DNA from: a virus
IMG/VR virus record: IMGVR_UViG_3300044985_000095
Location: 1 to 23,757 of that record
Length of the DNA: 23,757 nucleotides
Reading direction: 5' to 3' (one strand)
In this document: positions 5,562 through 23,569 of the stretch, piece after piece
Layout of the letters: each line of letters opens with the position of its first letter
Numbering within the stretch: position 1 is the stretch's first letter
The notes under the pieces: model-generated
What the model saw: only the letters and a program-made list of their open reading frames with translations
Told to the model about the DNA's origin: nothing
The model's database searches: none
Position numbers and translations under genes: made by a program

Positions 5562-6013
5562 TGATGGTTGCAAGTATGAGTGAACGAATCGCGCTGGACT
5601 ACGACAATGTAGATCAAGCTTTTCCGGAAGTGGATGCGGGCTTGGTGCCGTTTGGCAGCAGAGTTTTGGTTCAAAAACGCTCGCCCAAAAAGCGCCTGAA
5701 GAGCGGAATCATTGTTCCAGATGATGTCCGGGAGACTGAGTTTTGGAACACTCAGGTCGCTAAAGTCATCTTGCTTGGACCGGGTGCTTTCAAGAATCGC
5801 GACACTCTGGAGGTCTGGCCGGAAGGCGAGTGGGCACAGCCGGGAATGTATGTACGAGTTCCCAAGTACGGAGGCGACAAATGGTTCGTCGAAGTGCCTG
5901 AAGAAGAGGCGGAAAAAACAGGCGTCGATAAAGCGTGCTTCGTGCTCTTCAACGATTTGGATCTGAGTGGTCAAATCACGTGTAACCCAATGGATGTAAT
6001 CGCTTATCTGTAG
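5561..6013 (+). CDS. GroES-like co-chaperonin (phage-encoded)
   Basis: The 150-residue product matches the GroES/Cpn10 beta-barrel pattern. FGSRVLVQ (about 31-38) is the first strand. A lysine-rich mobile loop follows with the hydrophobic tripeptide IIV (50-52) in SGIIVPD. Then come AKVILLGPGAF (67-77), the PGMYVRVPKYGG strand (94-105) and FNDLDLSG (130-137). Family proteins cap GroEL-type chaperonins through the mobile-loop tripeptide. Phages such as T4 (gp31) carry their own version to fold the major capsid protein. At 150 residues it is longer than bacterial GroES (about 95) because of an N-terminal extension and an acidic insertion around 113-120. ATG 5561 overlaps the previous stop, and 5564 and 5576 are alternative starts; AGGA at 5553-5556 fits 5561 or 5564. 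No GroEL gene is present, so it presumably works with the host's. Confidence 0.88.
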   Translation: MMVASMSERIALDYDNVDQAFPEVDAGLVPFGSRVLVQKRSPKKRLKSGIIVPDDVRETEFWNTQVAKVILLGPGAFKNRDTLEVWPEGEWAQPGMYVRVPKYGGDKWFVEVPEEEAEKTGVDKACFVLFNDLDLSGQITCNPMDVIAYL

Positions 6014-8290: not shown

Positions 8291-9220
8291 ATGGCTGTCC
8301 CAATGAGGTCAACCGACTTTAGGTCCATTGTTGAGCCAATTCTCAATGAGACCTTTGACGGTATCTACAACCAACGCGCCGATGAATGGAAAGGTGTCTT
8401 CAAGCAACGTACGGGTACCCCCCGTTCGTATCATGAAGAGCCGGTCCTGTTCGGTTTTAACGCTGCGCCGGAAATGCCTGACGGCACTCCGGTCACGTTC
8501 GACGCAGGCGGAGTGCTGTTCATTCAGCGTTACGTCTACAAGGTCTTCGGTCTTGCATTCGCACTGACCAAGGTCCTCGTCGAAGACGGCGATCACATCC
8601 GCATCGGAAGAATTTATTCCGAGCATCTCGCTCAGTCGATGATCGAGACGAAGGAAACACTGTGCGCGAATATTCTTAATCGCGCGTTCAACGGTGCTTT
8701 CGTCGGAGGTGATGGCGTAGCGCTCAACGTGACCAACCATCCAATTGCGCCGGGAGGCTCAGCGGGTGGTGTGTTCTCGAACCTTCTGACGACTGCTGCG
8801 GCTTTGTCGCAAACGTCACTTGAGCAACAGCTCATTCAGATTCGTAATGCCGTGGACAATAACGGCAAGCGGATTCGTTTGCAGCCGCTCAAGATCGTCA
8901 CGGGTCCGAGTCAGGTCTTCCAAGCTGAAGTCCTCTTGAAGTCTGTCCTGCGTGCAGGAACGGCTAACAATGACATCAACCCGATCCTGTCCATGGGACT
9001 GCTGTCTCAGGGTCAGGCAAACCTGTCGCGTATCACTTCGACAACTGCATGGTGGGTCCAGACGGATGCGCCACGTGGTCTGCAGATGATGATGCGTCGT
9101 GGGCTTGAAAAGTCGATGGAAGGCGACTTCGAGACCGACTCGATGCGGTACAAGTCCACCGAGCGTTACATTCCGGACTGGACTGATCCGCGCGCCGTGT
9201 TCGGTACTCCGGGACTCTGA
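8291..9220 (+). CDS. Major capsid protein
   Basis: This 309-residue protein is the likely main head subunit. It sits after scaffold and decoration genes and has a strong AGGAG (8278-8282). The sequence includes RSIVEPILNETFDGIY near the N-terminus, FIQRYVYKVFGLAFALTKVLVED, NILNRAFNGAF, and a C-terminal half with LKIVTGPSQVFQAEVLL, TAWWVQTDAPRGLQMMM and YKSTERYIPDWTDPRAVFG. These features resemble HK97-fold capsid proteins of the Mu gpT-like group, where a central alpha/beta spine is followed by a strand ending in a short tail. No prohead protease or cleavable delta domain is apparent, so assembly probably uses the separate scaffold. A strong terminator follows the gene, fitting a highly expressed capsid gene. 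Confidence 0.88.
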   Translation: MAVPMRSTDFRSIVEPILNETFDGIYNQRADEWKGVFKQRTGTPRSYHEEPVLFGFNAAPEMPDGTPVTFDAGGVLFIQRYVYKVFGLAFALTKVLVEDGDHIRIGRIYSEHLAQSMIETKETLCANILNRAFNGAFVGGDGVALNVTNHPIAPGGSAGGVFSNLLTTAAALSQTSLEQQLIQIRNAVDNNGKRIRLQPLKIVTGPSQVFQAEVLLKSVLRAGTANNDINPILSMGLLSQGQANLSRITSTTAWWVQTDAPRGLQMMMRRGLEKSMEGDFETDSMRYKSTERYIPDWTDPRAVFGTPGL

Positions 9221-10856: not shown

Positions 10857-13577
10857 ATGGCTAATTCAACCATCCCCAATCTTGTTGCCGTATCAGTTCC
10901 TGCACTTACAGATCTGTTCGGAGTTCGTCAGAGCGGTGATGCACGGGACAAAAAATTAACGGCTACGCAGCTTCAGGCTCTGATTGCCTCTGGAGATGTA
11001 GTCAAAGTCGGCACGCCTGTTGATGGACAGATCGGCGTATGGACAGGTGATGGAACGATAGAAGGTACGAATGACCTTGTCTTTAATGGTGGCGTCTTCA
11101 AAGTCGTTGCCAGTACGGAGAGTAGGTTTACTGGCGATTTAAAATTACAGACTGGCTCCGGTCAGGCACCGATGCTCAGGGACGTAGCGGCAGACGAAAC
11201 AACTCCATCACTTTGCCCTGCGGTTGCTGATTCTAATACAGGTATCGGTTGGAAGTCCGCTGACAGGCTCGCGTTTATCGCTGGCGGTAAACGTGCAATG
11301 GTACTCGCCGAAAGCAATAGTATCGGAGTCATTCCCGCGTATGACACTGGAACGGGCCTGACCGCTTTTGCAGGTGGAGGACAAGGTAGCGCGATAACGC
11401 TGGATCGTGGATACAATGTCGTAACCACTGTTGCGACTACTGCCGACTCAGCAAAACTTCCGACAGGCTTAGCTTTCTTAGTAGGCTCCGTCGTTTATCT
11501 CAAGAACAATGGCGTGAATTCCCTCGATCTGTTCCCCGGATCAGGCGATGATCTTGGAGCCGGAGTAGATACTGCTATCGCGGTTGCGGCAGGAGCGTCA
11601 GTAGCATTCATAGGAACGACTGAAGGCTCAATCTGGACCCAACTGATCTTCGCGGCTGGAGGAGGTGGAGGTGACGTAAGTAAAGTCGGCACGCCTGTCA
11701 ATGATCAAATTGGTGTGTGGACCGGCGACGGTACTATAGAAGGTGTCGCTTCCTTACGATACAACAGCTCGCTGGAACTGTTCGCGGACTCTATTGTATT
11801 AGGAGATTTGGAAAGCGTTAAGATCAGAGAAACTCTGGTGAACACGATTGCATTCCGGTTCTCTAATTTCGATAGATGGAGAATGAATAACGATTCTTTC
11901 GCTTCTTCAGTTAGTGACGGCGCTTTCCTGAAGCGGACTGGCGTATCGGGCAGTGTGCCATCGCTCGTACCTCGCTCTGGCGACGAGAACACAGGTATCG
12001 GCTCCGCTGCGAGCGACCAAATCAGTGTAGTTGCTGGTGGAATTGCAGCTATTAGCGTCGTAGAGGCAGCTAGCGTTATAACAATCTCTCTGGTGGGTAC
12101 TACGAGAGGTACTAGCGCTAATGCGTTTGGCTTAATCAATGAAAACGCAAGTGCGACGAACCCTACAATCCTCCCCAACAGGGCCGACGAAGACACTGGC
12201 ATCGGCCAGAACGCAGTTGATCAAGTCTCGATCATCGCTGGTGGACTAGAAATTGCGCGTCTTACTGAGGTAGGTGGCCTTCCGAATCTAATCGTTGACC
12301 CCAGTGACGCGAACACCGGAGACGTTACATTATCCTTCGGGGGTGGCGGAAGTGGGTTCCGTCAGTCAGGTACTGCTCTGTTCGTAAAGGTCGGAGGCGT
12401 ATCGAAATTCGCGTGGGATGCTGATCTCTTCGTATCGGCGTTGTCTGACGGCGCAGGCATGTTGAATGAATCGGCATCTGGTACGAATCCAACACTGGTT
12501 CCAGATCGCGGTGATCTTGATACGGGAATCGGATCAGTTGGTAATGATCAGCTTTCGCTCATCGCTGGTGGTGTAGAGATCGCACGAGCGACAGAAGCTG
12601 CGGTAGATCAATTCATTGTTTCACCGGGAGCGATACTCGGTAGTGCCGCTCTTCCGTCGCTCGCATTCGGTGACGGAGACAGTGGCTTCCGTGAGTCAGT
12701 CGATGACGCGATCAAAGTAACACTCGTCGGAGTGGACCGATGGACCTTCACCGCAGATCGCTTTGTCGCAGTCGCAGGAAACGGTCCTAGCCTACAGAAC
12801 GAAGCGTCCACTGCCACTAACCCGACGTTGATTCCTGCTCTTGGTGATGTATCTACGGGGATCGGTGGCGTTACTACTAGCCTCTCGCTGATCGTTGGTG
12901 GAGCTGAACGTATTCATCTCGATACTTCACTCGCGACTGCAAACACATTCACGGGGGATTGGAAAGCTGCAAATGCTACTGGTCCTGCCCTCATTGATGA
13001 GGCTGCATCGGCTACAAATCCGACACTGGTTCCGACTAAAGGTGATGAAGATACAGGAGTAGGTAGCAACGGGGCTGATACGCTTTCACTCATCGCTGGT
13101 GGCGTTGAGATGCTACGTTTAGAAGAAGGCACGACCGACCAAGTTCTCATTGGTCCAGATGGCAGTGCTGCAGACCCCGCTCTTTCATTCATAAGTGACC
13201 CCGATACGGGACTCTACTCTGTCACTCCCGGCATTATTGCGATGTCAGTTGACGGCATAGATAGATTTCGGTGGGTAGGCAATCAGTTTCGTGGAGCGAC
13301 AGGGGGCAGTCCTTCGATACAGAATGAAGTAGCATCTGCATCAAATCCAACATTGCTTCCAACTCAGTCCGATCTCGATACAGGGATAGGCTGGACAGGC
13401 ACTGATCAGTTGGCGCTCGTTGCTGGTGGTCTTGATTGTATGACCGTAAGAGAGACGGCGAGCGCTCGACAAATAGGTTTCTACACGACTGCACCGATTT
13501 CATTGCAGACCGGTGTTGCGGTGAGTGCCGCAGCGATTCACGCGGCTCTGGTCGCACTGGGACTAATTACCGCTTAA
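10857..13577 (+). CDS. Large modular fibre-like protein A
   Basis: This 906-residue protein has a short N-terminal domain (about 1-45, ending KLTATQLQALI) followed by repeat modules. Module A (VGTPV...GVWTGDGTIEG) occurs twice. Module B (AFAGGGQGSA ... DLFPGSGDDLGAGVD) occurs once. Module C (NPTLVP...DTGIG...DQLSLIAGGVE) has about seven degenerate copies, and module D (LAFGDGDSGFRES and variants) about three. The C-terminus ends AIHAALVALGLITA, an ending often seen in phage fibres. Such DTGIG/FASDPDTG repeats are known from phage tail or head fibres, where trimeric beta-rich shafts carry receptor-binding tips. GAGGA at 10845-10849 supports the start. Whether it is a head or tail fibre cannot be told. 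No endosialidase, lyase or autoprotease motif is seen. Confidence 0.82.
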   Translation: MANSTIPNLVAVSVPALTDLFGVRQSGDARDKKLTATQLQALIASGDVVKVGTPVDGQIGVWTGDGTIEGTNDLVFNGGVFKVVASTESRFTGDLKLQTGSGQAPMLRDVAADETTPSLCPAVADSNTGIGWKSADRLAFIAGGKRAMVLAESNSIGVIPAYDTGTGLTAFAGGGQGSAITLDRGYNVVTTVATTADSAKLPTGLAFLVGSVVYLKNNGVNSLDLFPGSGDDLGAGVDTAIAVAAGASVAFIGTTEGSIWTQLIFAAGGGGGDVSKVGTPVNDQIGVWTGDGTIEGVASLRYNSSLELFADSIVLGDLESVKIRETLVNTIAFRFSNFDRWRMNNDSFASSVSDGAFLKRTGVSGSVPSLVPRSGDENTGIGSAASDQISVVAGGIAAISVVEAASVITISLVGTTRGTSANAFGLINENASATNPTILPNRADEDTGIGQNAVDQVSIIAGGLEIARLTEVGGLPNLIVDPSDANTGDVTLSFGGGGSGFRQSGTALFVKVGGVSKFAWDADLFVSALSDGAGMLNESASGTNPTLVPDRGDLDTGIGSVGNDQLSLIAGGVEIARATEAAVDQFIVSPGAILGSAALPSLAFGDGDSGFRESVDDAIKVTLVGVDRWTFTADRFVAVAGNGPSLQNEASTATNPTLIPALGDVSTGIGGVTTSLSLIVGGAERIHLDTSLATANTFTGDWKAANATGPALIDEAASATNPTLVPTKGDEDTGVGSNGADTLSLIAGGVEMLRLEEGTTDQVLIGPDGSAADPALSFISDPDTGLYSVTPGIIAMSVDGIDRFRWVGNQFRGATGGSPSIQNEVASASNPTLLPTQSDLDTGIGWTGTDQLALVAGGLDCMTVRETASARQIGFYTTAPISLQTGVAVSAAAIHAALVALGLITA
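11001..11069 (+). repeat. Module A copy 1 (VGTPV-GVWTGDGTIEG) in fibre A
   Basis: First of five copies of a roughly 23-residue module shared by both large fibre genes. It follows the N-terminal domain directly, without module B in front of it. The best-kept part is TGDGT-IEG. Confidence 0.85.
11203..13450 (+). repeat. Seven degenerate module C copies (DTGIG/AGG repeats) in fibre A
   Basis: Seven imperfect copies of the pattern NPTLxPxxxDxDTGIG followed by DQLSLIAGGxE are spread through fibre A. The first is PSLCPAVADSNTGIG and the last is NPTLLPTQSDLDTGIG. Module D segments (FGDGDSGFRES, SFISDPDTGLYS) alternate with them. Copies are clearly divergent at the DNA level, so they are old duplications or exchanges. 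Confidence 0.85.
11355..11744 (+). repeat. Composite module B+A in fibre A
   Basis: A unit of about 107 residues (module B) with FAGGGQGSA, VVTTVATT, VVYLKNNGVNSLDLFP, GDDLGAGVD and WTQLIFAAGG is followed at once by a second module A (11676-11744). The same B unit occurs three times in fibre B (16222, 17455, 18424), the first two followed by module A. Confidence 0.85.
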
Positions 13578-13589
13578 CAGGAGAAAGAA

Positions 13590-14075
13590 ATGAACAAGAA
13601 CGTGGGACTGACGTACGTGAAGGATTTCTCGTTCCCTGCGGAGCAAGGTTTCTCTGGGTCAGCGGGCGTGCACAAAGTGCGCGGTTACATGCGCGGCGGG
13701 CACGTGAAGTCAAAAGCGTCACAGAAGATGCCGCCTACCGTCAAGGGCCATGGTGGCGCAGTGCACGACAAGCTTAAGAGTGAAGGCGCGAAGATGGGCT
13801 ATGCCTACGGTGGTCAGGTGAAGCAAAGCAACACCTCTGCTGAGTTCGTTGCGAAACGTGGTAAGCAGAAGACCATGGACCACGGTGTGCAGCCTGCTCG
13901 CAAGGGACGCACCCAGCAGGAAGTTGAAGCTGGTGGCACTAAGCGATTGAAACCCGGTTTCAAAAAAGGCGGAGGCGTATGTAGAGTTCGTATGCCCAAG
14001 AACGTGAAAGCGAAAGGTGGGCTCGCAAAGTACGCCGCAGGTGGCTTAGCAAAAAAAGCCGTGGCGGCTCCGTAG
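13590..14075 (+). CDS. Basic Gly/Lys-rich phage protein (zero-frame product)
   Basis: The zero-frame product has 161 residues, is strongly basic and rich in Gly, Lys and His, and has no hydrophobic core. It includes GYMRGGHVKSKASQ, KGHGGAVHDKLKSEG, YAYGGQV, KRLKPGFKKGGGV and AKGGLAKYAAGG. The start is well supported by AGGAG at 13579-13583. The gene ends a few codons after a run of seven A at 14051-14057 read as GCA AAA AAA. A -1 shift there gives a 202-residue form (see the separate entry). Small basic proteins of this type occur between fibre and neck genes in other phages. Binding to DNA or to acidic virion surfaces is plausible but not shown. Neighbours are fibre A upstream and a neck-like protein downstream. 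Confidence 0.75.
   Translation: MNKNVGLTYVKDFSFPAEQGFSGSAGVHKVRGYMRGGHVKSKASQKMPPTVKGHGGAVHDKLKSEGAKMGYAYGGQVKQSNTSAEFVAKRGKQKTMDHGVQPARKGRTQQEVEAGGTKRLKPGFKKGGGVCRVRMPKNVKAKGGLAKYAAGGLAKKAVAAP
14051..14057 (+). promoter_or_regulatory. Candidate -1 frameshift slippery site A_AAA_AAA
   Basis: Seven A residues are read in the zero frame as the end of GCA followed by AAA AAA, which is the X_XXY_YYZ arrangement needed for tandem -1 slippage on tRNA-Lys. The local sequence AGCAAAAAA resembles the well-studied E. coli dnaX site. An SD-like AGGTGG (14039-14044) ends six bases upstream, closer than in dnaX. Downstream, GCCGT (14058-14062) can pair with ACGGC (14081-14085), but with no spacer. The stimulators are therefore only suggestive. 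Confidence 0.55.
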
Positions 14076-14197
14076 AGAAGACGGCACGCAGAGTCGCTAA
14101 ACAAGTCATGGACCGGCACGTCAGATCCCCGAGACCAAAAGGTCACGGGACAAAGCCTCGTGGTGGTCGTAGCAGAGTGCGAGGAGGCGGCTACTAA
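14057..14197 (+). CDS. -1 frame extension of the basic protein (candidate frameshift product)
   Basis: After a -1 shift at 14051-14057, reading continues from AGC at 14057 for 46 codons to TAA at 14195-14197. The added sequence is basic, like the protein it extends. It includes VEKTARRVAKQVMDRH (a likely amphipathic helix), SPRPKGHG and RGGRSRVRGGGY. The stop overlaps the ATG of the next gene (TAATG), the coupling used throughout this operon, and the next gene's GGAGG lies inside the extension. The only in-frame ATG (14108) has no Shine-Dalgarno signal, so independent initiation is less likely. Alternatives are a homopolymer sequencing error (eight A would fuse the frames) or a separate 29-residue ORF. 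Without this extension, 14076-14196 would be an unexplained gap in a tightly packed operon. Confidence 0.55.
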   Translation, partial: SRGGSVEKTARRVAKQVMDRHVRSPRPKGHGTKPRGGRSRVRGGGY

Positions 14198-15267
14198 TGC
14201 CCACAACTGGAACAGTCGGTTCGACCGTCTTCACGAATCAGCAGATCATTGATCATGCTTTTCGTCGCTGCAAGATGGTCGAGCAAGAGATCACGGGCGA
14301 GCACATAACGATTGCTCTCGACCTGCTGTGGTTGTACACGCAGACATTGGTCAACAAAGGCATCAAGCTGTGGAATGTTATCCCGCTCTTGCTGCCGATC
14401 TACGAACGTCAGGCAACTGTCCCCTGTCCTGTCGGTACCGTAGACACGTACACCATCAACCTGCGTAATCTGAACCGGATCACGGGGGATGCAAGTGCTA
14501 CGGAGGGGGTCGCTGACAATGCATTCGATAGCGATCTGACCACTGCGTGCACGCAGGTAGCTGCTGCGGGCTCGATCACGATGGGACTGGACAGTGCTAC
14601 GAACGTGAATACCTTCGGCATCATGCCGAATGTCTCAGGACTTTGGGACTACGTGATCGAGGGGACGAACGATAACTTCGTGAGTACGACGACACTTCTC
14701 ACGCGGGTGGAGCAAGTTGTTGTTGCAAATGAGTGGCTTTGGGTGGACGTTCAGGGTGTGTTGGGAGGCGTCAACGATTTCGCTGCGTATCGACTGCGCG
14801 CGACGGGTACCACGGTGCTCGATGTCATCGAACTGTTCTACGGCAACAAGCCGAATGAGATTCCGATGTACAAGCTCAATCGGAATGACTATGCAAACTT
14901 GCCTGACAAAGTAAGTACCGGCAGACCGACTCAGTTCTGGTACGACAAACAACGCATTCAACCAGAGATAGAGCTTTGGCCGAGCCCCGGAGCTGAGTTT
15001 ACGTTCGATCAGATCACCGGTTTCGTGCAACGACAGTTGCAAGACGTCGGTGCGATGGTGGATGAACTGGAGGTGCCGGATCGTTGGTATCTTGCCATCG
15101 TATGTAACTTGGCATCAGAACTGGGCAGAGAAATTAAAGAGGTGGACGAGGTGATCATCCCTCGACTGGACCTCGATGCAGAAAAGTATTTGAAGGATGC
15201 ATGGACGGGAGAGACCGACGAGTCCGAAACGTACCTGCGTCCTAACATCTCCCCTTACACGAGGTAG
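14197..15267 (+). CDS. Neck/head-tail adaptor-like protein with discoidin-like insert
   Basis: The 356-residue product starts by TAATG coupling with a strong GGAGG (14183-14187). Residues 1-95 and about 216-356 belong together. They hold an N-terminal helical part (FTNQQIIDHAFRRCKM) and a C-terminal part with MYKLNRNDYANLPDK, GRPTQFWYDKQ, IELWPSP and WYLAIVCNLASELGREI. This resembles phage neck or tail-tubular/head-completion proteins. Residues about 97-215 form a separate beta-rich insert (GVADNAFDSDLTTACTQ, NTFGIMPNVSGLWDYVIEG, WVDVQ, YRLRATG). It reads like a discoidin (F5/8 type C) fold, a carbohydrate- or protein-binding module. The likely role is in the head-tail connection, with the insert exposed on the surface. 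The call rests on motif resemblance, with no computed homology. Confidence 0.7.
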   Translation: MPTTGTVGSTVFTNQQIIDHAFRRCKMVEQEITGEHITIALDLLWLYTQTLVNKGIKLWNVIPLLLPIYERQATVPCPVGTVDTYTINLRNLNRITGDASATEGVADNAFDSDLTTACTQVAAAGSITMGLDSATNVNTFGIMPNVSGLWDYVIEGTNDNFVSTTTLLTRVEQVVVANEWLWVDVQGVLGGVNDFAAYRLRATGTTVLDVIELFYGNKPNEIPMYKLNRNDYANLPDKVSTGRPTQFWYDKQRIQPEIELWPSPGAEFTFDQITGFVQRQLQDVGAMVDELEVPDRWYLAIVCNLASELGREIKEVDEVIIPRLDLDAEKYLKDAWTGETDESETYLRPNISPYTR

Positions 15268-15269
15268 TC

Positions 15270-15635
15270 ATGCCAGTATTTTTAGATCCAACTGGGAAAA
15301 CGACTTACGGAATAGGCATCTGTGCTCGATGCAGTCGTAAGTTCTTTTTGGAAGATCTGCACTCGGACCCAAACTCACCGGGTCTGAAAGTTTGCATCGA
15401 CGACCTTGACGATTACGATCCGTACCGTCTGGCTCCGCGTCAAGCTGATCGAATTACGCTCCCGTTTTATCGTCCTGATGAACCCCTGACGGCAGGCGGA
15501 CCAAACCCGAACCCGAACTCACTGTTCGGTGTTCGAGAAGCGATTGGTGAGAGTCCGCGTGCAACGGAAGACGGAAGATTACGCGTGCTTGAAGATGCGA
15601 CCGTGAACGATGATGAGGTAGATCTCGATGGCTAA
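15270..15635 (+). CDS. Small zinc-ribbon-like phage protein (incomplete Cys set)
   Basis: The 121-residue product shows Cys18-Ala-Arg-Cys21 followed by Cys42-Ile-Asp-Asp, and then DYDPYRLAPRQ. This looks like half of a CxxC...CxxC zinc ribbon in which the fourth ligand is replaced by Asp. Phage proteins with CxRC...VCxDD and YDPWRLPPR, as I recall, form a common small family near neck genes, without a firm function. The C-terminus is acidic and disordered. GAGG (15261-15264) precedes the ATG by 5 bases, just after the previous stop. The end overlaps the start of fibre B by 8 bases (ATGGCTAA). Confidence 0.72.
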   Translation: MPVFLDPTGKTTYGIGICARCSRKFFLEDLHSDPNSPGLKVCIDDLDDYDPYRLAPRQADRITLPFYRPDEPLTAGGPNPNPNSLFGVREAIGESPRATEDGRLRVLEDATVNDDEVDLDG

Positions 15636-18600
15636 CATAAAAATCTCAGCTCTGCCTCCAGCCATAACTCCTCTGGATAATGCGAACACTTTATTAGAGA
15701 CGACGGTTCTCGAAGCTGGGGAAGAAGTAAGCCGACGAATCACCGTCTCGGACATCGTGGCTGCAATAAGCGGTCTGGATGCCACGTTCTTAACGCTGTC
15801 TAACAACGCGAATCTACCGAACGAGCGAGTGCTGACTGAGGGAACCAACGTCACCTTCGTTGACAGTGGTCCGAACGGTACGCTGACAATCAGCGTAACA
15901 GGTGGGGGATTCGGCGACGTATTTAAGGTCGGAACTCCTGTAAACAACCAACTCGGCATCTGGACAGGTGACGGTACTCTCGAAGGGACTGACCAGTTTA
16001 CTTTAGTGAGTGATCTTCTCCGAGCTGGATTGGGCAATGGACCCGGAATGCGGAACATCTCATCAACGAGCGCAACCGTCGCTAGTCTTTTGCCCAGACA
16101 CGGTGATCCGAACACAGGAATCTCTAACGCAGGAGATGACAGATTAGGTTTAACTGCTGGTGGCGTCGGAGGAATGATTCTCGTCGAAGCTAGCGCTGGT
16201 GTCGTTCACGCATTTGATAGCGGTCTAGGGTTGACAGCTTTCGCGGGAGGTGGACAGGGAAGCGCTACTGAACTTTTCAGTTCATACAGCGTGGTGACGA
16301 CTGTTGCGACAACGGGTGATTCGGTAAAGCTTACAGGATCAAATCAAGTAGGCTCACTCATGTACGTCAAGAACGACGGCGCGAATGCCTGCGACGTCTT
16401 CCCCGCAGTTGGGGATGATCTTGGTCTGGGTGTCGGCGTAGCACTTTCACTTCCGGCTGGTCAGTCGGCTGCATTCATCTTAACTATCTCTAACACCACT
16501 TGGACTCAGCTGATATTCGAAGCTGGTGCGTCTGGTGGCGACGTCTTCAAAGTAGGCACGCCTGTTGACAATCAGGTTGGAGTATGGACTGGCGACGGTA
16601 CGATTGAAGGTAACGACAATTTCCTTTGGGATGGTGCTGTCCTTTCTACATTCGATGCCGGTACGACTGATGGCTTGTCGCAGGGTCACGATGGTCTGAA
16701 GTATGAGTTCTCCTTCTCTGCGTCTAACTCAGTAGATTTTTTTGGCACAACTTCCAGTTATCAATTCGACCGCACGGTTTCGATTGGCGGTATCGGAGGT
16801 TTTGGAAGCCAAGGATTATTCATCGACGATACGAGTGGTAGTAGCGTCGGAATACAGTTGCGAACCAGTGGTATCAACCAGAGTGGTGCAGGCATAGGAG
16901 CGTTCAACTTCTCCGGTATGACCGAAGTGGGATTACTGGGAGTTCCTTTCAAGTTGACTGACGGTGCGGCGGACACCTTCACTACCTCACTCGATGGGGC
17001 AGACATCAATTCAGTTGCCGTAGGGATTGCGGATTGGAATATCACGGGTCTCACCGGTCGCATCATGCAGGATGCAGAGACGCTGGCATTCGTGTCAGAG
17101 ATAACTGGTGTTTCGTTCCCAATCTTAGCTCCAGATGGGACGGCTGGTGCTCCATCGTATAGTTTCGCTTCCGATACAGACATCGGCATGTTCCGTGTCA
17201 GTGCAGATATTTTAGGATTAGCAGCCAGAGCGACGTTGATAGCTCAGGCTGTTGGTGCTCTCGGTGCTAATCAATTCGTTGTCGCTCCCGGAGCCGTTCA
17301 GAACAATGTTTCAGCTCCGGATCTTGGATTCGGTGATGGCGACTCCGGCGTCATGCAGACTGTTGATGACACCATCGCTCTGGTCGCAGGTGCAAATTTA
17401 GCAGTTCGGTACGCAGAGGCATCTGGCAGTGTAATTCAAACTAATAATAGCGACGTTGCACTGACTGCAAGCGTTACTCAGACGCAAGCTGGAGGTCTCG
17501 CGCTGCTTAGTTCGTACAACGAGATTTCAACTGTAGGGACGACGGGCGACGCTTTAACTGCATTCGATGTTTTTCAAGGTACTCGCCTCGTTGTCGTCAA
17601 CAATGGTGCGAACGATCTTCAGCTTTTCCCAGCTGTTGGTGATGACTTTGGTGCGGGCGTCGATGCATCAATTACGATTGCTGCGGGAGATGTTGGAGTA
17701 TTCCTTGGGCGTGATTCTGTAAATTGGGACGCTCTCCTCAACGCCGCTGCTGGTGGTGGTGGTGATGTATTCAAGGTCGGTACCCCAGTCGATAATCAAG
17801 TCGGCGTTTGGACTGGAGACGGCACCATAGAGGGGACTACAGGACTCACCTATGACGGGTCCGCTCTTGAAGTTGCCGGGACAATACAAGTTTCAAATGC
17901 AGCCGGTCCTGCAATGCTGGACGAGGCTGCGACCAGCACTAATCCGACGCTGGTTCCGAATCGTGCCGATCCTGATACCGGCATCAGTGGTAATGGAGTT
18001 GATCAACTCTTTCTCGTTGCTGGTGCGGTTCAGATGCTCCGAGCTACGGAAGTTCCCGGTTCCAGACAGATCACCATTACTCCCGGAATTATAGACAACA
18101 ATCCAGCACTTCCAGCACTGGCATTTGGTGACGCTGACACTGGCTTCTATGAGTCAGCCGACGACACCTTGAAAGTATCCATTGACGGCACTGCTAGATT
18201 TGTCTGGGCGGCGAATTCGTTCAACTCCGAGGTAGCAACCGGACCTGCGATGCTGAACGTGGCATCGGGCGCTTTGATTCCGGTGTTCACCCCGGATAGG
18301 TCCGATTCGGATACGGGTCTGGCATCTGCTGGTGCCGACATACTCACTCTGCCTGTAGGAGGCGTCGAAGCTCTGCGGCTTGCGGAGGTTTCCAGTCGCA
18401 TCATCCAGACCAATGCGAACCACGTCGGACTCACTGCCAGTGTCACGCAGACGCAGGGAGGCGGACTTGCACTGCTCAGTTCGTACAACGAGGTTGCAAC
18501 GGTAGCGAACGAGGGTGACGCACTGACTGCGTTCGCCGTGACCGAGGGCATAAGGCTCGTCGTCATCAACAACGGAGCCAACGGTCTCCAACTCTTTCCG

Positions 18601-19587
18601 GCGTCAGGCGACGACATCGGAGCCGGTGTCAATGCGGCAATTACAATTTCAGCGAACAGTGCTGCCGTGTTCTTAGGACGTGATGCCACGAACTGGGATC
18701 AACTGCAGAATCAAGGTCAAAACGGTGGAGCGGTATTCCAAGGACTGGGAACTTGGAGGTACAGGACTGAGATCACGAGTCCTCCAGCCAGCGGTCAGGT
18801 CAGATTCAACAACGCTGATCCGACGTTGGCGACGGAGATGTTTCTTGCCGAGACGAATGCTAACGGCACCGACGTCAACAACTTCCTTGACCTGCTGACA
18901 GCAGGCTCAATCTTCTACATTCAAGACAAGGCTATCTCAGCCAACTTCTTCCTCGTGGAGATCAGTTCCAACGTTGACAATGGAACAGACAGGACGTTTG
19001 GAATTGCGAACATCATACTGGAGGGTGCGGAACCGAGTCAGAATACTGAGGTTCTCATTGTCGCCACTGAATCAGGTGCGGACCAATTAGTATTTCCAGA
19101 ATTCCAGTTCTTCGCTGATCAACTGGAGAATCCCAACAACGCGGACTGGACGGTCAACGCGCTCGCGCCTGCTTCACCGGACAGCAACAACGCAGGACTG
19201 ACGGTAAGACTGTTCGATGACACGACAGAGGAAGGCGTCGGGTTCACCATAGAAGTTCCCGCAGATGCTACGAACATCGTCTTCGACTTCGTAGGACGTG
19301 CAGAGACTGGTCCGGGAGTGGCGAACACCGTCGGTCTTGACATATACAACCGGGGCATCCCGGACAACGCGGCAGTCCAAGCGTGGAGTTCAGCGACGCA
19401 ACTGACGGACCTTGACATACCGACCAACGAATTCTTCCAAGAAGATACGCAGACAGTGGCGCTCGCTACTCTCGGCGTAACGGCAGGAGAGACCACTCAG
19501 TTCGAGCTGGTTCGTGTGGCTCCGACCGGAGGGACGGATTTGACAGGCGACTGGGACTTGCTGCTGATGAAAGTGAGTTTCACCTGA
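15628..19587 (+). CDS. Large modular fibre-like protein B
   Basis: This 1319-residue protein starts with MANIKISALPPAITPLDNAN, an N-terminal type often used by phage fibres to attach to the virion. It has three copies of module A (FKVGTPV...GVWTGDGTIEG), three of module B (for example ALLSSYNE ... LQLFPAVGDDFGAGVD) and three of module C. Module D variants include YSFASDTDIGMF, GFGDGDSGV and AFGDADTGFYES. Residues about 1040-1160 (WRYRTEITSPPASGQVRFNN and onward) and about 1160-1319 (NADWTVNALAPASPDSNNAG to the end) are non-repeated C-terminal domains. They would carry the tip, and both look like beta-rich phage domains. The gene overlaps its upstream neighbour by 8 bases and its downstream neighbour by 1. 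It probably forms a trimeric fibre. Receptor specificity and head or tail location are unknown. Confidence 0.83.
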   Translation: MANIKISALPPAITPLDNANTLLETTVLEAGEEVSRRITVSDIVAAISGLDATFLTLSNNANLPNERVLTEGTNVTFVDSGPNGTLTISVTGGGFGDVFKVGTPVNNQLGIWTGDGTLEGTDQFTLVSDLLRAGLGNGPGMRNISSTSATVASLLPRHGDPNTGISNAGDDRLGLTAGGVGGMILVEASAGVVHAFDSGLGLTAFAGGGQGSATELFSSYSVVTTVATTGDSVKLTGSNQVGSLMYVKNDGANACDVFPAVGDDLGLGVGVALSLPAGQSAAFILTISNTTWTQLIFEAGASGGDVFKVGTPVDNQVGVWTGDGTIEGNDNFLWDGAVLSTFDAGTTDGLSQGHDGLKYEFSFSASNSVDFFGTTSSYQFDRTVSIGGIGGFGSQGLFIDDTSGSSVGIQLRTSGINQSGAGIGAFNFSGMTEVGLLGVPFKLTDGAADTFTTSLDGADINSVAVGIADWNITGLTGRIMQDAETLAFVSEITGVSFPILAPDGTAGAPSYSFASDTDIGMFRVSADILGLAARATLIAQAVGALGANQFVVAPGAVQNNVSAPDLGFGDGDSGVMQTVDDTIALVAGANLAVRYAEASGSVIQTNNSDVALTASVTQTQAGGLALLSSYNEISTVGTTGDALTAFDVFQGTRLVVVNNGANDLQLFPAVGDDFGAGVDASITIAAGDVGVFLGRDSVNWDALLNAAAGGGGDVFKVGTPVDNQVGVWTGDGTIEGTTGLTYDGSALEVAGTIQVSNAAGPAMLDEAATSTNPTLVPNRADPDTGISGNGVDQLFLVAGAVQMLRATEVPGSRQITITPGIIDNNPALPALAFGDADTGFYESADDTLKVSIDGTARFVWAANSFNSEVATGPAMLNVASGALIPVFTPDRSDSDTGLASAGADILTLPVGGVEALRLAEVSSRIIQTNANHVGLTASVTQTQGGGLALLSSYNEVATVANEGDALTAFAVTEGIRLVVINNGANGLQLFPASGDDIGAGVNAAITISANSAAVFLGRDATNWDQLQNQGQNGGAVFQGLGTWRYRTEITSPPASGQVRFNNADPTLATEMFLAETNANGTDVNNFLDLLTAGSIFYIQDKAISANFFLVEISSNVDNGTDRTFGIANIILEGAEPSQNTEVLIVATESGADQLVFPEFQFFADQLENPNNADWTVNALAPASPDSNNAGLTVRLFDDTTEEGVGFTIEVPADATNIVFDFVGRAETGPGVANTVGLDIYNRGIPDNAAVQAWSSATQLTDLDIPTNEFFQEDTQTVALATLGVTAGETTQFELVRVAPTGGTDLTGDWDLLLMKVSFT
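15919..15990 (+). repeat. Module A copy 1 in fibre B
   Basis: The first fibre-B copy, reading VFKVGTPVNNQLGIWTGDGT, follows the N-terminal domain with GGGFGD in front. It is the most divergent of the three copies in this gene. Confidence 0.85.
16222..16614 (+). repeat. Composite module B+A, copy 1 in fibre B
   Basis: Module B (GLTAFAGGGQGSA, VVTTVATTGDSVKL, VFPAVGDDLGLGV, WTQLIFEAG) runs directly into module A (16543-16614). It is closer to the fibre-A copy at 11355-11744 than to the other fibre-B copies, for example in GLTAFAGGGQGSA and WTQLIF-AG. Confidence 0.85.
17455..17838 (+). repeat. Composite module B+A, copy 2 in fibre B
   Basis: Module B variant (ALTASVTQTQAGGLALLSSY, GDDFGAGVDASITIAAGD, VFLGRDSVNWDALL) is followed by module A (17767-17838). 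It pairs with the copy at 18424 through the shared LTASVTQTQ-GGLALLSSYN opening. Confidence 0.85.
18424..18735 (+). repeat. Module B copy 3 in fibre B, without module A
   Basis: A B unit (GLTASVTQTQGGGLALLSSY, LQLFPASGDDIGAGVN, VFLGRDATNWDQL) ends in GGAVFQ instead of GGDVFK. It leads into the unique C-terminal domains, so the A unit appears to have been lost or replaced here. Confidence 0.85.
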
Positions 19588-20288
19588 TGGCTATTCGTAC
19601 CAATGACGTTGACGGATCAACCTTTTCGTTTGTTGATCCAGCGAATATTTTTACGCAAGATCCGTTCTCAGCGATGGCGTGGGCGAATCTTTATTCTGGT
19701 GACAGTAATCCCCAATCTCGTACAATCATTACTGTATGGGACAACCCCACTAGCAAGTCATGGTTCTTAAAACCTAGCCAAGTCATAACGCTTGAAATAC
19801 GTGCGTCGTTATCATTTGATGGTTCTGCGAATACTGTTTTGAACGGGACCACACTTATTGCGCTCGACCAGTGGAATCACATGGGTTTAGATTTTGATGG
19901 CACCGACCTGCATCTTTGGTTGAACGGGGTATTGGAAGCGACATTAAATGACCCCGGAACTGTATTTGATGATGGTGAAGACTTCGGAATCGGCGGCACT
20001 AGCGACGGTGGCAATACACAAGATGTTGATACAGCAGATGTGCGATATTACGACAGGATTTTATCAGCGGAGGAGTGGCTGACTATCTTCACTGCGCAAG
20101 GTCACGATGGAATTGTCGAGGGACTTTTACTCCGACCACTTTTGAATGACCGGGAATCCGGCATCCTTGTAACTGCGAAGAATCCCATTGATGCAGGTCC
20201 GGGTCAAATTGCTTATGGAGGCGAATTCGGTGCGCCTGTCCCAGAGTATGTAGAAGATGGCGGACTCAGTTTTAGAAGGAGAGTGTAG
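19587..20288 (+). CDS. LamG/concanavalin-like lectin-fold virion protein
   Basis: The 233-residue product starts by TGATG coupling to fibre B. Its strand pattern is that of a laminin-G-like/concanavalin jelly roll. It runs FSAMAWANLYSG (28-39), SRTIITVWDN (44-53) and QWNHMGLDFDGTDLHLWLNG (95-114, the diagnostic W-H-x-D-G-x-L-x-L-W-x-N-G segment). It then reaches DVRYYDRILSAEEWLTIF (151-168), the usual closing segment of such domains. The C-terminal 50 residues are non-domain and end in a basic FRRRV. Known members bind carbohydrate or protein ligands and are common in phage fibres and baseplates. Adjacent position suggests it works with fibre B, possibly as a receptor-binding or accessory subunit. 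No signal peptide is present. Confidence 0.8.
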   Translation: MAIRTNDVDGSTFSFVDPANIFTQDPFSAMAWANLYSGDSNPQSRTIITVWDNPTSKSWFLKPSQVITLEIRASLSFDGSANTVLNGTTLIALDQWNHMGLDFDGTDLHLWLNGVLEATLNDPGTVFDDGEDFGIGGTSDGGNTQDVDTADVRYYDRILSAEEWLTIFTAQGHDGIVEGLLLRPLLNDRESGILVTAKNPIDAGPGQIAYGGEFGAPVPEYVEDGGLSFRRRV

Positions 20289-21011: not shown

Positions 21012-21383
21012 ATGGCGAGGGTCACGAAAGAGCAGGGAATCAACATCAGCGCGAGTGTCTTCGTGTCGTGGCTTACGATTGGAGCCGCATTCTGGCTGGT
21101 AGCGAAACCCATTTTGGTTGCATCTGTCAGTACAGCGATGGCGGAAGATATTAAGCAGACGGTGCAGCAGGAGATCGCGCCGATCAACGCGGCTTTCGTG
21201 GCTCTTCTTCAAACGAACATTGCGAACACTCGCCGGAAGATTGCGAGGTTGGAATTCAAACGTGATCAGCCACCGAATGGTGATTGGACAGCGCAGGATT
21301 CTGAAGACATGGTGAATCTCCAATTAGAATTGTCGAGCAGCGAGTCGGCTTTGGCTGCTCTAACGGTTACGAACACGAGCTGA
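21012..21383 (+). CDS. Single-TM coiled-coil membrane protein, candidate inner-membrane spanin
   Basis: I chose ATG 21012 over an in-frame upstream start at 20952, because GGAGAAG at 21001-21007 fits and the preceding stop lies just before it. The 123-residue protein has a short basic N-terminus (MARVTK), one hydrophobic segment at about residues 13-38 (VFVSWLTIGAAFWLVAKPIL) and a helical, charged remainder with likely coiled coil (about 43-115). This is the topology of an i-spanin, which spans the periplasm and pairs with an outer-membrane lipoprotein during lysis. A lipoprotein gene lies 0.7 kb downstream. The separation of the pair is unusual, so spanin function is only a candidate. Anchoring of another lysis protein is an alternative. 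Confidence 0.68.
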   Translation: MARVTKEQGINISASVFVSWLTIGAAFWLVAKPILVASVSTAMAEDIKQTVQQEIAPINAAFVALLQTNIANTRRKIARLEFKRDQPPNGDWTAQDSEDMVNLQLELSSSESALAALTVTNTS

Positions 21384-21862
21384 TGGAACTTACACTGAAA
21401 CGATTCTCTGGTGCCGACGAGTCTACTCTCGGACTGATCTTTGTTCATGAAGATTTCTTCTGCTATTCGCTGGAGGATCAGCACAACGAGCCAAAGATTC
21501 CGGGAGAAACTCGCATTCCCGCAGGAGAGTATGAGATCAAATTTCGTAACGAAGGTGGCATGCTCACACGGTACAAGAAACGATTTGACTGGCACAACGG
21601 AATGCTGTGGCTCCAAGACGTACCGGGGTTTCGATTTATTTATCTTCACGTCGGCAATAAGGATGATGATTCGGACGGGTGCATCCTTGTTGGCGACGGT
21701 CAAGTTCAAAACGTGACTGAGCGAGGTCAGGTGACCAGTTCAGTCGCAGCATACAGACGACTTTACGAGACCATCACGGAAGCACTGTCACCCCTGCCGC
21801 CCTCCCAAGCGACAGAAGAAGTGTGGATCAAAATATACGACGAAGACGAGGAGATAACATGA
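21383..21862 (+). CDS. DUF5675-family protein, candidate lysis or cell-wall enzyme
   Basis: The 159-residue product starts by TGATG coupling to the membrane protein. It shows FCYSLEDQHNEPKIPGETRI (about 26-45), IPAGEYEIKFR (45-55), HNGMLWLQDVPGF (71-83) and FIYLHVGNKDDDSDGCILVG (85-104). Together these match the phage and bacterial family DUF5675. His89 followed by Ser97-Asp-Gly-Cys100 resembles the H...S-x-G-C active site of YkuD-type L,D-transpeptidases, which suggests a cysteine-based reaction on peptidoglycan or a related fold. Catalysis is inference, since the DUF has no assigned function that I know. It sits between a single-TM protein and a holin-like protein where an endolysin would be expected, and no lysozyme- or amidase-type gene is seen in the window. 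Confidence 0.78.
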   Translation: MELTLKRFSGADESTLGLIFVHEDFFCYSLEDQHNEPKIPGETRIPAGEYEIKFRNEGGMLTRYKKRFDWHNGMLWLQDVPGFRFIYLHVGNKDDDSDGCILVGDGQVQNVTERGQVTSSVAAYRRLYETITEALSPLPPSQATEEVWIKIYDEDEEIT

Positions 21863-22092
21863 ACACGATCATCGGAGCGTTTGTCGCAATGGTTATCGCA
21901 TTGCTGACGGCAGCATTGGCGCTGCTGAGCGGGGAAGGAGTCACTTCTTTGAGTGATATCTCTGGTCTTCAGTGGACCATCCTGATCATTGGCGGAGCAC
22001 TTACATTTTCCAAGGACTTCCAGACGATTACTATCCGACGTCTGGCAAACAAAGTCACAGGCACGGGTGACGGAGGAGGTGCCGTAGGATGA
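21859..22092 (+). CDS. Two-TM holin-like protein
   Basis: I chose ATG 21859, which has GAGGAG at 21848-21853 and overlaps the previous stop by 4 bases (ATGA), over an in-frame upstream start at 21823. The 77-residue protein has two hydrophobic segments, about residues 3-24 (IIGAFVAMVIALLTAALALL) and 36-50 (LQWTILIIGGALTF). A short polar turn separates them, and a basic C-terminus (TIRRLANKV) precedes a Gly-rich end. Size, two segments and position after a wall-acting candidate fit a class II holin, which forms inner-membrane lesions to trigger lysis. The call rests on topology and context, because holins share little sequence. Confidence 0.72.
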   Translation: MNTIIGAFVAMVIALLTAALALLSGEGVTSLSDISGLQWTILIIGGALTFSKDFQTITIRRLANKVTGTGDGGGAVG

Positions 22093-22514
22093 ACTACTTA
22101 ACCGTAGGAGTACGCCAGTATCAGACGTTCTTCCTGCTCGCAATCATGTTGCTGCTGCAAGCATGTGCAGCATCCAACCCGGTTGCGAAAGCAGAAACGA
22201 TTGAGCAACGTGCGTTTGCAACGTACGGCACATTCGTGATCATCGAGGAGCAAGCTGCGAAGTTGGTCTCCAGCGGACAGATCTCGGACAGTGCTGTGCG
22301 TGCTATTGCACGTGCAGATTCGCAAATAAAATCAGTGGCAGATGCCCTGTTAGATACCGCTCTGGAATTCGTAGTGATTCGGGCGCAGTACGAAGCGGGG
22401 GCAACCACCGAGGAAAAGTTTGTAAGAGCCATGAACGAATTAAATGGATGGATCGAACGAGCAAGACCTCTCATTGCCACTCTCATAGCCGCAGTTAACG
22501 AAGCAAAGGAATAG
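22089..22514 (+). CDS. Phage lipoprotein in lysis cassette, possible outer-membrane spanin
   Basis: The ATG overlaps the holin stop by 4 bases (ATGA), and GGAGGAGG (22072-22079) lies upstream. The 141-residue protein begins with a lipoprotein signal. A basic N-terminus precedes the hydrophobic core FFLLAIMLLLQAC, whose lipobox LQAC gives a lipidated Cys26. The mature part is helical (ETIEQRAFATYGTFVIIEEQ and so on) and has no C-terminal TM segment, which excludes a one-piece u-spanin. In a Gram-negative host it would be placed in a membrane facing the periplasm. Its partner could be the coiled-coil protein at 21012. The mature part is longer than classical o-spanins (about 40-60 residues), so another envelope role remains open. 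Confidence 0.75.
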   Translation: MNYLTVGVRQYQTFFLLAIMLLLQACAASNPVAKAETIEQRAFATYGTFVIIEEQAAKLVSSGQISDSAVRAIARADSQIKSVADALLDTALEFVVIRAQYEAGATTEEKFVRAMNELNGWIERARPLIATLIAAVNEAKE

Positions 22515-22924: not shown

Positions 22925-23569
22925 ATGGCTGTCTCGATGACATTCAACTCGCTCCTTGAAGATATGCGTAAGTATCTGGAGCGAGGTACGGCTGTCGATC
23001 CCAGTGTGTTCGACCAGCTCCCCAGCCTTATCAATTTGGCTGAACGGGAGCTGGCGAATCGGTTAAAGATACTGGGATTTGTACGGGTCGTGACCGACAC
23101 GTTTGGCGTCGGGCAGTCCGTGGTGCCGAAACCTAATCGATGGCGAGATACGATCTCGATCAACTTCGGTGTGGGAGTAGAGCAAGAGCGCACGCCATTG
23201 TTTGCTCGCTCCTATGAGTACTGTCGGCGCTATTGGCCGGATGAAGACACCACTGCTCAGCCGAAGTTCTACGCTGATTACGATTACTTCAACTGGCTGA
23301 TAGTTCCGTCAGCGGACCTTGCATATCCATTTGAAGTCAACTACTGGGAGTTGCCTGCGTTACTGGATAACGTCAACCAAACGAACTGGACAACGGATTT
23401 CGCCCCCAACAGTCTGCTTCATGGCGCGCTCTTGCAGGCAACCCCCTTTTTAAATAACGATGAACGCATTCCTATTTGGGAAGCGATTTACGAGAAAGAC
23501 GTTGCAATACTCGAAGCGCAAGACATGAAGCGCATCATTGATAGGAACGTCACGAGGGAGGCTGTCTGA
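22925..23569 (+). CDS. Head-tail adaptor protein, SU10-adaptor-like
   Basis: The 214-residue product starts after GGAG (22915-22918). It contains TFNSLLEDMRKYLERG near the N-terminus, LPSLINLAERELANRLKILGF (about 29-49), KPNRWRDTISINFGVG, YEYCRRYWPDED and PKFYADYDYFNWLIVPSADL. It continues with YPFEVNYWELPALLDNVNQT and a C-terminal helix region (LLHGALLQATPFLNNDERI). This pattern matches, from memory, the adaptor proteins of podoviruses related to SU10, which attach below the portal and connect to the tail nozzle. The protein has no membrane or catalytic features. It overlaps the next gene by TGATG. Together with the 14197 protein it forms the neck set of the particle. Confidence 0.82.
   Translation: MAVSMTFNSLLEDMRKYLERGTAVDPSVFDQLPSLINLAERELANRLKILGFVRVVTDTFGVGQSVVPKPNRWRDTISINFGVGVEQERTPLFARSYEYCRRYWPDEDTTAQPKFYADYDYFNWLIVPSADLAYPFEVNYWELPALLDNVNQTNWTTDFAPNSLLHGALLQATPFLNNDERIPIWEAIYEKDVAILEAQDMKRIIDRNVTREAV

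Follow-up and report, generated by a model that had tools for sequence, protein, structure and literature searches.

A very probable programmed −1 ribosomal frameshift appends an Arg-rich basic tail to a Gly/Lys-rich phage protein

Organization of the locus

The sequence analysed here, referred to below as the window, comprises positions 1 to 23,757 of the viral record IMGVR_UViG_3300044985_000095. It contains a gene for a basic, Gly/Lys-rich protein of 161 aa with a net charge of about +25 (13590–14075), located between a fibre-like ORF of 906 aa and an adaptor-like ORF of 356 aa (14197–15267), the latter matching phrog_12985 and having relatives annotated as 'tail adaptor'. The 161-aa gene, the adaptor-like gene and all elements of the junction between them lie on the plus strand.

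An initial annotation had placed a candidate −1 shift at a run of seven A near the 3' end of the 161-aa gene. Codon reading of the sequence confirms that this run (14051–14057) is read in the zero frame as GCA AAA AAA GCC, which corresponds to the slippery phase A_AAA_AAA, and that the zero-frame stop, TAG at 14073–14075, lies 15 nt 3' of the heptamer. The translated −1 frame is open, as claimed, for 46 codons plus TAA (14057–14197), encoding a tail, SRGGSVEKTARRVAKQVMDRHVRSPRPKGHGTKPRGGRSRVRGGGY, with a net charge of +12. Its stop (TAA, 14195–14197) overlaps the ATG of the adaptor-like gene (14197–14199) in the arrangement TAATG, and a GAGGAGG motif within the 3' end of the tail (14181–14187) is, judging from its sequence, the likely ribosome-binding site of that gene. 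The fused product, as computed from the sequence, would contain 156 + 46 = 202 aa. The 121-nt gap that follows the zero-frame stop, which had been described as out of keeping with the tight packing, is indeed the largest between neighbouring ORFs placed in the window. Moreover, the A7 run is the sole in-phase A_AAA_AAR or G_GGA_AAR site among the 7654 codon steps of the window ORFs.

Conservation of the heptamer and tail

A search with the adaptor protein yielded 49 viral loci with a readable upstream gene, and using the tail as query contributed three further contigs (L053, L070 and L079). The tail together with an in-phase shift-prone heptamer (X_XXY_YYZ) occurs in 37 metagenomic viral contigs, corresponding to 23 distinct sequences when they are compared over the stretch between 60 nt 5' of the heptamer and the end of the tail and the window is included. 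The heptamer, its phase and the tail are all retained in 23/23 of these distinct homologous junctions, although the sequences are related and such counts are not independent. A_AAA_AAA is found in 19 of them, G_GGA_AAG in two (L042 and L043), A_AAA_AAG in one (L006) and G_GGA_AAA in one (L053), so that the substitutions alter amino acids or codons but retain slipperiness. The zero-frame stop follows at a distance of 15 nt in 11/23, directly (as TAG) in another 11/23, an arrangement that occurs in clades B, C and E, and after 3 nt in the remaining sequence. Upstream of the same tail, the zero-frame C-termini fall into four contexts (KKAVAAP/KKAGAAL; RGGSVKK; PYTGYNxQPGGSxxEDARYMxxKK; and VPTFTDVPKVGxxxGKRGAAR), and in every tail-bearing contig of the main locus comparison the tail runs up to or overlaps the start of the adaptor gene. 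In the tree of the adaptor protein, tail-bearing members fall into several separate groups, namely L042/L043, L079, L027/L036 and the main group.

The occurrence of the heptamer at these junctions is more than chance. Within the 23 homologous gene bodies, no in-phase A_AAA_AAR or G_GGA_AAR was found in 5421 positions, and lysine is encoded by AAA in 36% of cases. GTA accounts for only 41 of the 356 Val codons in the gene bodies, yet for 12 of the 12 Val codons that precede A-run heptamers.

A homopolymer run within a metagenomic contig invites the explanation that the broken frame reflects gene decay or an indel introduced by sequencing or assembly. The likelihood of this is practically negligible, given 23 distinct sequences from many assemblies, heptamers that are not homopolymers, purifying selection on the tail (see below) and the lack of in-frame versions. 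None of the 37 tail-bearing contigs carries an in-frame fusion of the tail, although the A7 run makes such a mutation easy, and a second assembly (L014), identical over 13068 bases except for one mismatch, likewise shows seven A; the single continuous gene that would have overturned the original proposal was thus not encountered. Retention of the slip signal in 23 distinct relatives shows that the junction represents real coding rather than sequencing error.

The tail as a coding sequence

In the comparison of homologues, the tail shows a pN/pS of 0.31 in the −1 frame, versus 1.47 and 1.80 in the other two frames. Divergence is concentrated at third codon positions (0.55–0.59 of sites, versus 0.16–0.25 at first and second positions), and indels comprise whole codons in multiples of three. 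When the tail is divided at a conserved Met, pN/pS is 0.36 between the heptamer and this residue, a part in which selection is mixed in clade A since the first tail codons overlap the zero frame there, and 0.30 after it. By these measures of divergence, purifying selection acts on the tail in the −1 frame, including the part 5' of the sole candidate start. The tail adds a charge of about +7 to +12, and structure prediction for the tail alone suggests a helix at residues 5–22 with low to moderate confidence.

The same Met, located in the motif VMDRHV, raises the alternative that the tail is made as a small protein in its own right, with ribosomes starting at this internal codon or re-initiating once they have passed the zero-frame stop. 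The residue is encoded by ATG in 21/23 sequences and by GTG in L003, and L006 and L009 also possess an ATG just after the TAG. However, L053 has CTG at this position, the only candidate Met common to all sequences; the codons between the heptamer and the Met are constrained in the −1 frame, as the pN/pS of 0.36 indicates; and in L023 and L024 a −1-frame stop 3 nt 5' of the heptamer leaves the conserved segment with no ATG, GTG or TTG start. Independent translation of the tail would also leave the heptamer unexplained, and is considered highly improbable.

Candidate stimulatory elements

Two elements flanking the heptamer may contribute to slippage. On the 5' side, the previously reported AGGTGG, six bases upstream of the A-run, is present at 14039–14044 as a Shine-Dalgarno (SD)-like motif and possible stimulator. 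Its predicted anti-SD pairing energy is −5.9 kcal/mol in the window and ranges from −5.0 to −10.8 across homologues, compared with a background mean of about −3; an SD-like stretch (AGGTGG, AGGAGG or GAGG) precedes the heptamer in most homologues, with pairing above the gene average. The coding context is GG-rich, and the GG dipeptide encoded by AGGTGG is common in the protein. In dnaX, the SD-like element lies about 10 nt from its heptamer, farther than here. Since the spacing at the present site is short, the role of the motif in the shift is uncertain, and it perhaps assists.

On the 3' side, the downstream stem is present as the initial annotation had supposed, but it is larger than the 5 bp then given: a 5' arm, TGGCGGCTC (14062–14070), can pair with a 3' arm, GAGTCGCTA (14091–14099), to form a putative stimulatory stem of nine contiguous pairs including G-U, with a loop of 20 nt and a spacer of 4–5 nt. 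Its fold energy is ordinary when compared with synonymous recodings (z about −0.5 to −0.9 at 48–60 nt). In all tail-bearing homologues a stem starts 2–6 nt 3' of the heptamer; a GC-rich stem is clear in most clades and only moderate in the window, and many sequences of clades B–E as well as L079 reach z values of about −2 to −3.3 against synonymous recodings in at least one window of folding. In clade A, RNAalifold places the stem GGCGGCTC/GAGTCGCC at +6 to +13 and +34 to +41 after the heptamer, with five invariant pairs and no covariation seen. The stem region is larger in clades B and E, where two pairs have changed on both sides.

Proposed mechanism

A canonical programmed −1 ribosomal frameshift at the A_AAA_AAA of the 161-aa gene is very probable on the basis of these comparisons. 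Most ribosomes would read GCA AAA AAA GCC in the zero frame and terminate at the TAG at 14073, yielding the 161-aa protein. Some would move one base back on A_AAA_AAA through tandem re-pairing of lysine tRNAs, probably aided by the downstream stem and perhaps also by the upstream SD-like motif, and would then translate 46 further codons up to TAATG, generating an isoform of 202 aa that ends in an Arg-rich basic tail. What the sequences themselves establish is the conserved heptamer, its phase and a tail constrained in its own frame; slippage on the ribosome, as well as its efficiency, is inferred. Several points stand against this interpretation, namely that A_AAA_AAA is a weaker shifter in E. 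coli than A_AAA_AAG (PMC5009743), the unexceptional fold of the stem in the window, the lack of covariation in the clade A stem, the closeness of the SD-like motif to the heptamer and the absence of the tail in some close relatives. The mechanism itself is ordinary; it is the gene that is new, and the comparative support is unusually complete.

The same product would arise if RNA polymerase added an A on the A7 run, such that a share of the mRNAs reads into the tail, and the run is homopolymeric in 19/23 variants. However, A_AAA_AAG, with six A, and G_GGA_AAG and G_GGA_AAA, with three and four A, represent poor sites for polymerase slippage or none at all, and the downstream stems suit ribosomal shifting. 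Transcriptional slippage is very unlikely, and the ribosome is favoured over the polymerase because the runs in G_GGA_AAG and G_GGA_AAA are too short for the latter to slip.

A further alternative accepts the frameshift and differs only in its purpose: shifted ribosomes, on terminating at TAATG, would pass on to the adaptor gene through translational coupling, and the peptide would be incidental. The 3' end of the tail does hold the adaptor SD, and the tail stop lies at or overlaps the adaptor start. A mainly regulatory shift is nevertheless unlikely, as the amino acid sequence of the tail is subject to purifying selection and relatives without a tail express the adaptor from a standard SD with coupling. 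The programmed frameshift could serve such coupling in addition.

Comparison with known frameshift systems

Tail assembly chaperones represent the usual case of phage frameshifting. Lambda gpG/gpGT and other members of this class likewise have a slippery heptamer near the 3' end, a −1 shift and a −1-frame overlap, but the position of the gene differs, and the product here belongs to another class, that of a basic Gly/Lys-rich protein. A tail assembly chaperone was rejected as an identity for the gene, given that no PHROGs or Pfam chaperone match was found and that the next gene is adaptor-like, with an SU10-type adaptor at 22925, rather than a tape-measure gene of a long-tailed phage, for which there was no match among the window ORFs scanned.

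Frameshift-extended phage structural proteins are also known in T3/T7, Kuravirus and Listeria phages (PMC5009743, PMC9965538). T7/T3 gene 10 and the capsid gene of Kuravirus (YF01) resemble the present gene in that ribosomes shift by −1 close to the 3' end of a gene from the head region, producing a minor form with a C-terminal extension (PMC9965538, PMC5009743), and the Kuravirus site, GGGAAAG (PMC9965538), matches that of L042 and L043. In those phages, however, the shifted gene encodes the capsid, whereas the window has a separate capsid gene at 8291–9220 (phrog_4523, PF10124), for which reason a frameshift-extended major capsid was also rejected; in addition, the extensions there are Ig-like domains or large, in contrast to the tail found here, a short peptide rich in Arg for which one helix is predicted. 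The coat and tail genes of Listeria phages A118, A500 and PSA similarly encode structural proteins that frameshifting lengthens at the C terminus (PMC5009743), but the PSA coat site and the tail (tsh) sites involve +1 shifts on proline codons, and the proteins are unrelated to that of the window. Bacterial dnaX, whose protein is likewise unrelated, also shifts on A-runs with two lysine codons followed by a downstream stem-loop, comparable to the putative stem of the window, and in some bacteria the zero-frame stop directly follows its shift site (PMC5009743), as in clades B, C and E.

Protein family and function

The body protein matches no Pfam or PHROGs family, and sequence searches with it returned nothing useful; a PDB match to bS21 (E 0.03) was discarded as marginal and probably compositional. 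The fused protein and two family members had no match among isolate phages, nor did the gene family among the prokaryote genomes scanned, and the virus group is known so far only from metagenome assemblies. The earlier designation as an inter-fibre/neck protein describes a genomic location only. Its place in the operon suggests that the 161-aa protein serves in the head-neck region, likely as a component of the virion or of its assembly. By analogy with other phage structural extensions, the long isoform may represent a minor form of this structural or neck-region protein, made in a fixed ratio and binding DNA, RNA or protein, a view to which we give roughly even credence; most plausibly, the shift would set the isoform ratio and the basic end would touch DNA or the adaptor/portal.

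In the literature on frameshifts in phage structural genes, no description of this basic Gly/Lys-rich family was found. The junction provides a well-supported natural −1 frameshift in a phage gene that is neither tail chaperone nor capsid. Its 23 natural variants differ in heptamer (four types), stop spacing (three) and stem, and constitute a comparative set for studying how bacterial frameshift sites evolve and yet remain functional. Gene callers will miss the tail and report a false gap before the adaptor gene.

Evolution of the tail

The tail can be dispensed with in some phages, as it is missing from the close relatives L010–L013 and L026. L013 and L026 retain apparent remnants of its 3' end, which also carries the adaptor SD. 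In the tail-less L010–L012, a sequence 5' of the adaptor gene, GAGGCGGCTCCGTA, resembles the clade A stem arm and is read in the zero frame; it may derive from a frameshift cassette that has since been lost. The wider, more distant body family (L130–L146) showed no matching tail or heptamer, and the extension is accessory because the wider protein family mostly lacks it.

In L053, the adaptor groups with clade B and the tail is of the clade A type, a mismatch suggesting recombination of the cassette. Tentatively, and with somewhat less than even confidence, the tail and its shift signal may be viewed as a mobile expression cassette in which recombination has coupled differing heptamers and zero-frame C-termini to one and the same Arg-rich tail, always with a −1 shift and never as a fusion, such that a fixed minor share of the neck-region protein carries an end binding nucleic acid or the adaptor.

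Other features of the window

Two long fibre-like ORFs (10857–13577 and 15628–19587) have the repeats KVGTPV(D/N)xQ(I/V)GVWTGDGTIEG and ATNPTLxPxxxDxDTGI in common, which suggests repeat expansion or exchange between them. Directly 3' of the second lies a concanavalin A-like lectin domain (19587–20288; Laminin_G_3, E 6.8e-13), a possible receptor- or sugar-binding part. There are two different adaptor-like genes, that at 14197–15267 (phrog_12985) and an SU10-type adaptor at 22925–23569 (PF24175). Between the portal and capsid genes, the product of 5564–6013 is similar to chaperonin-10 (GroES) proteins (Pfam Cpn10, E 1.6e-6) and may be regarded as a phage-encoded co-chaperonin-like protein. An apparent lysis region contains a DUF5675 protein (21383–21862; E 4.7e-27), after which come a small ORF of membrane type and an ORF whose start resembles a lipobox (22089–22514).
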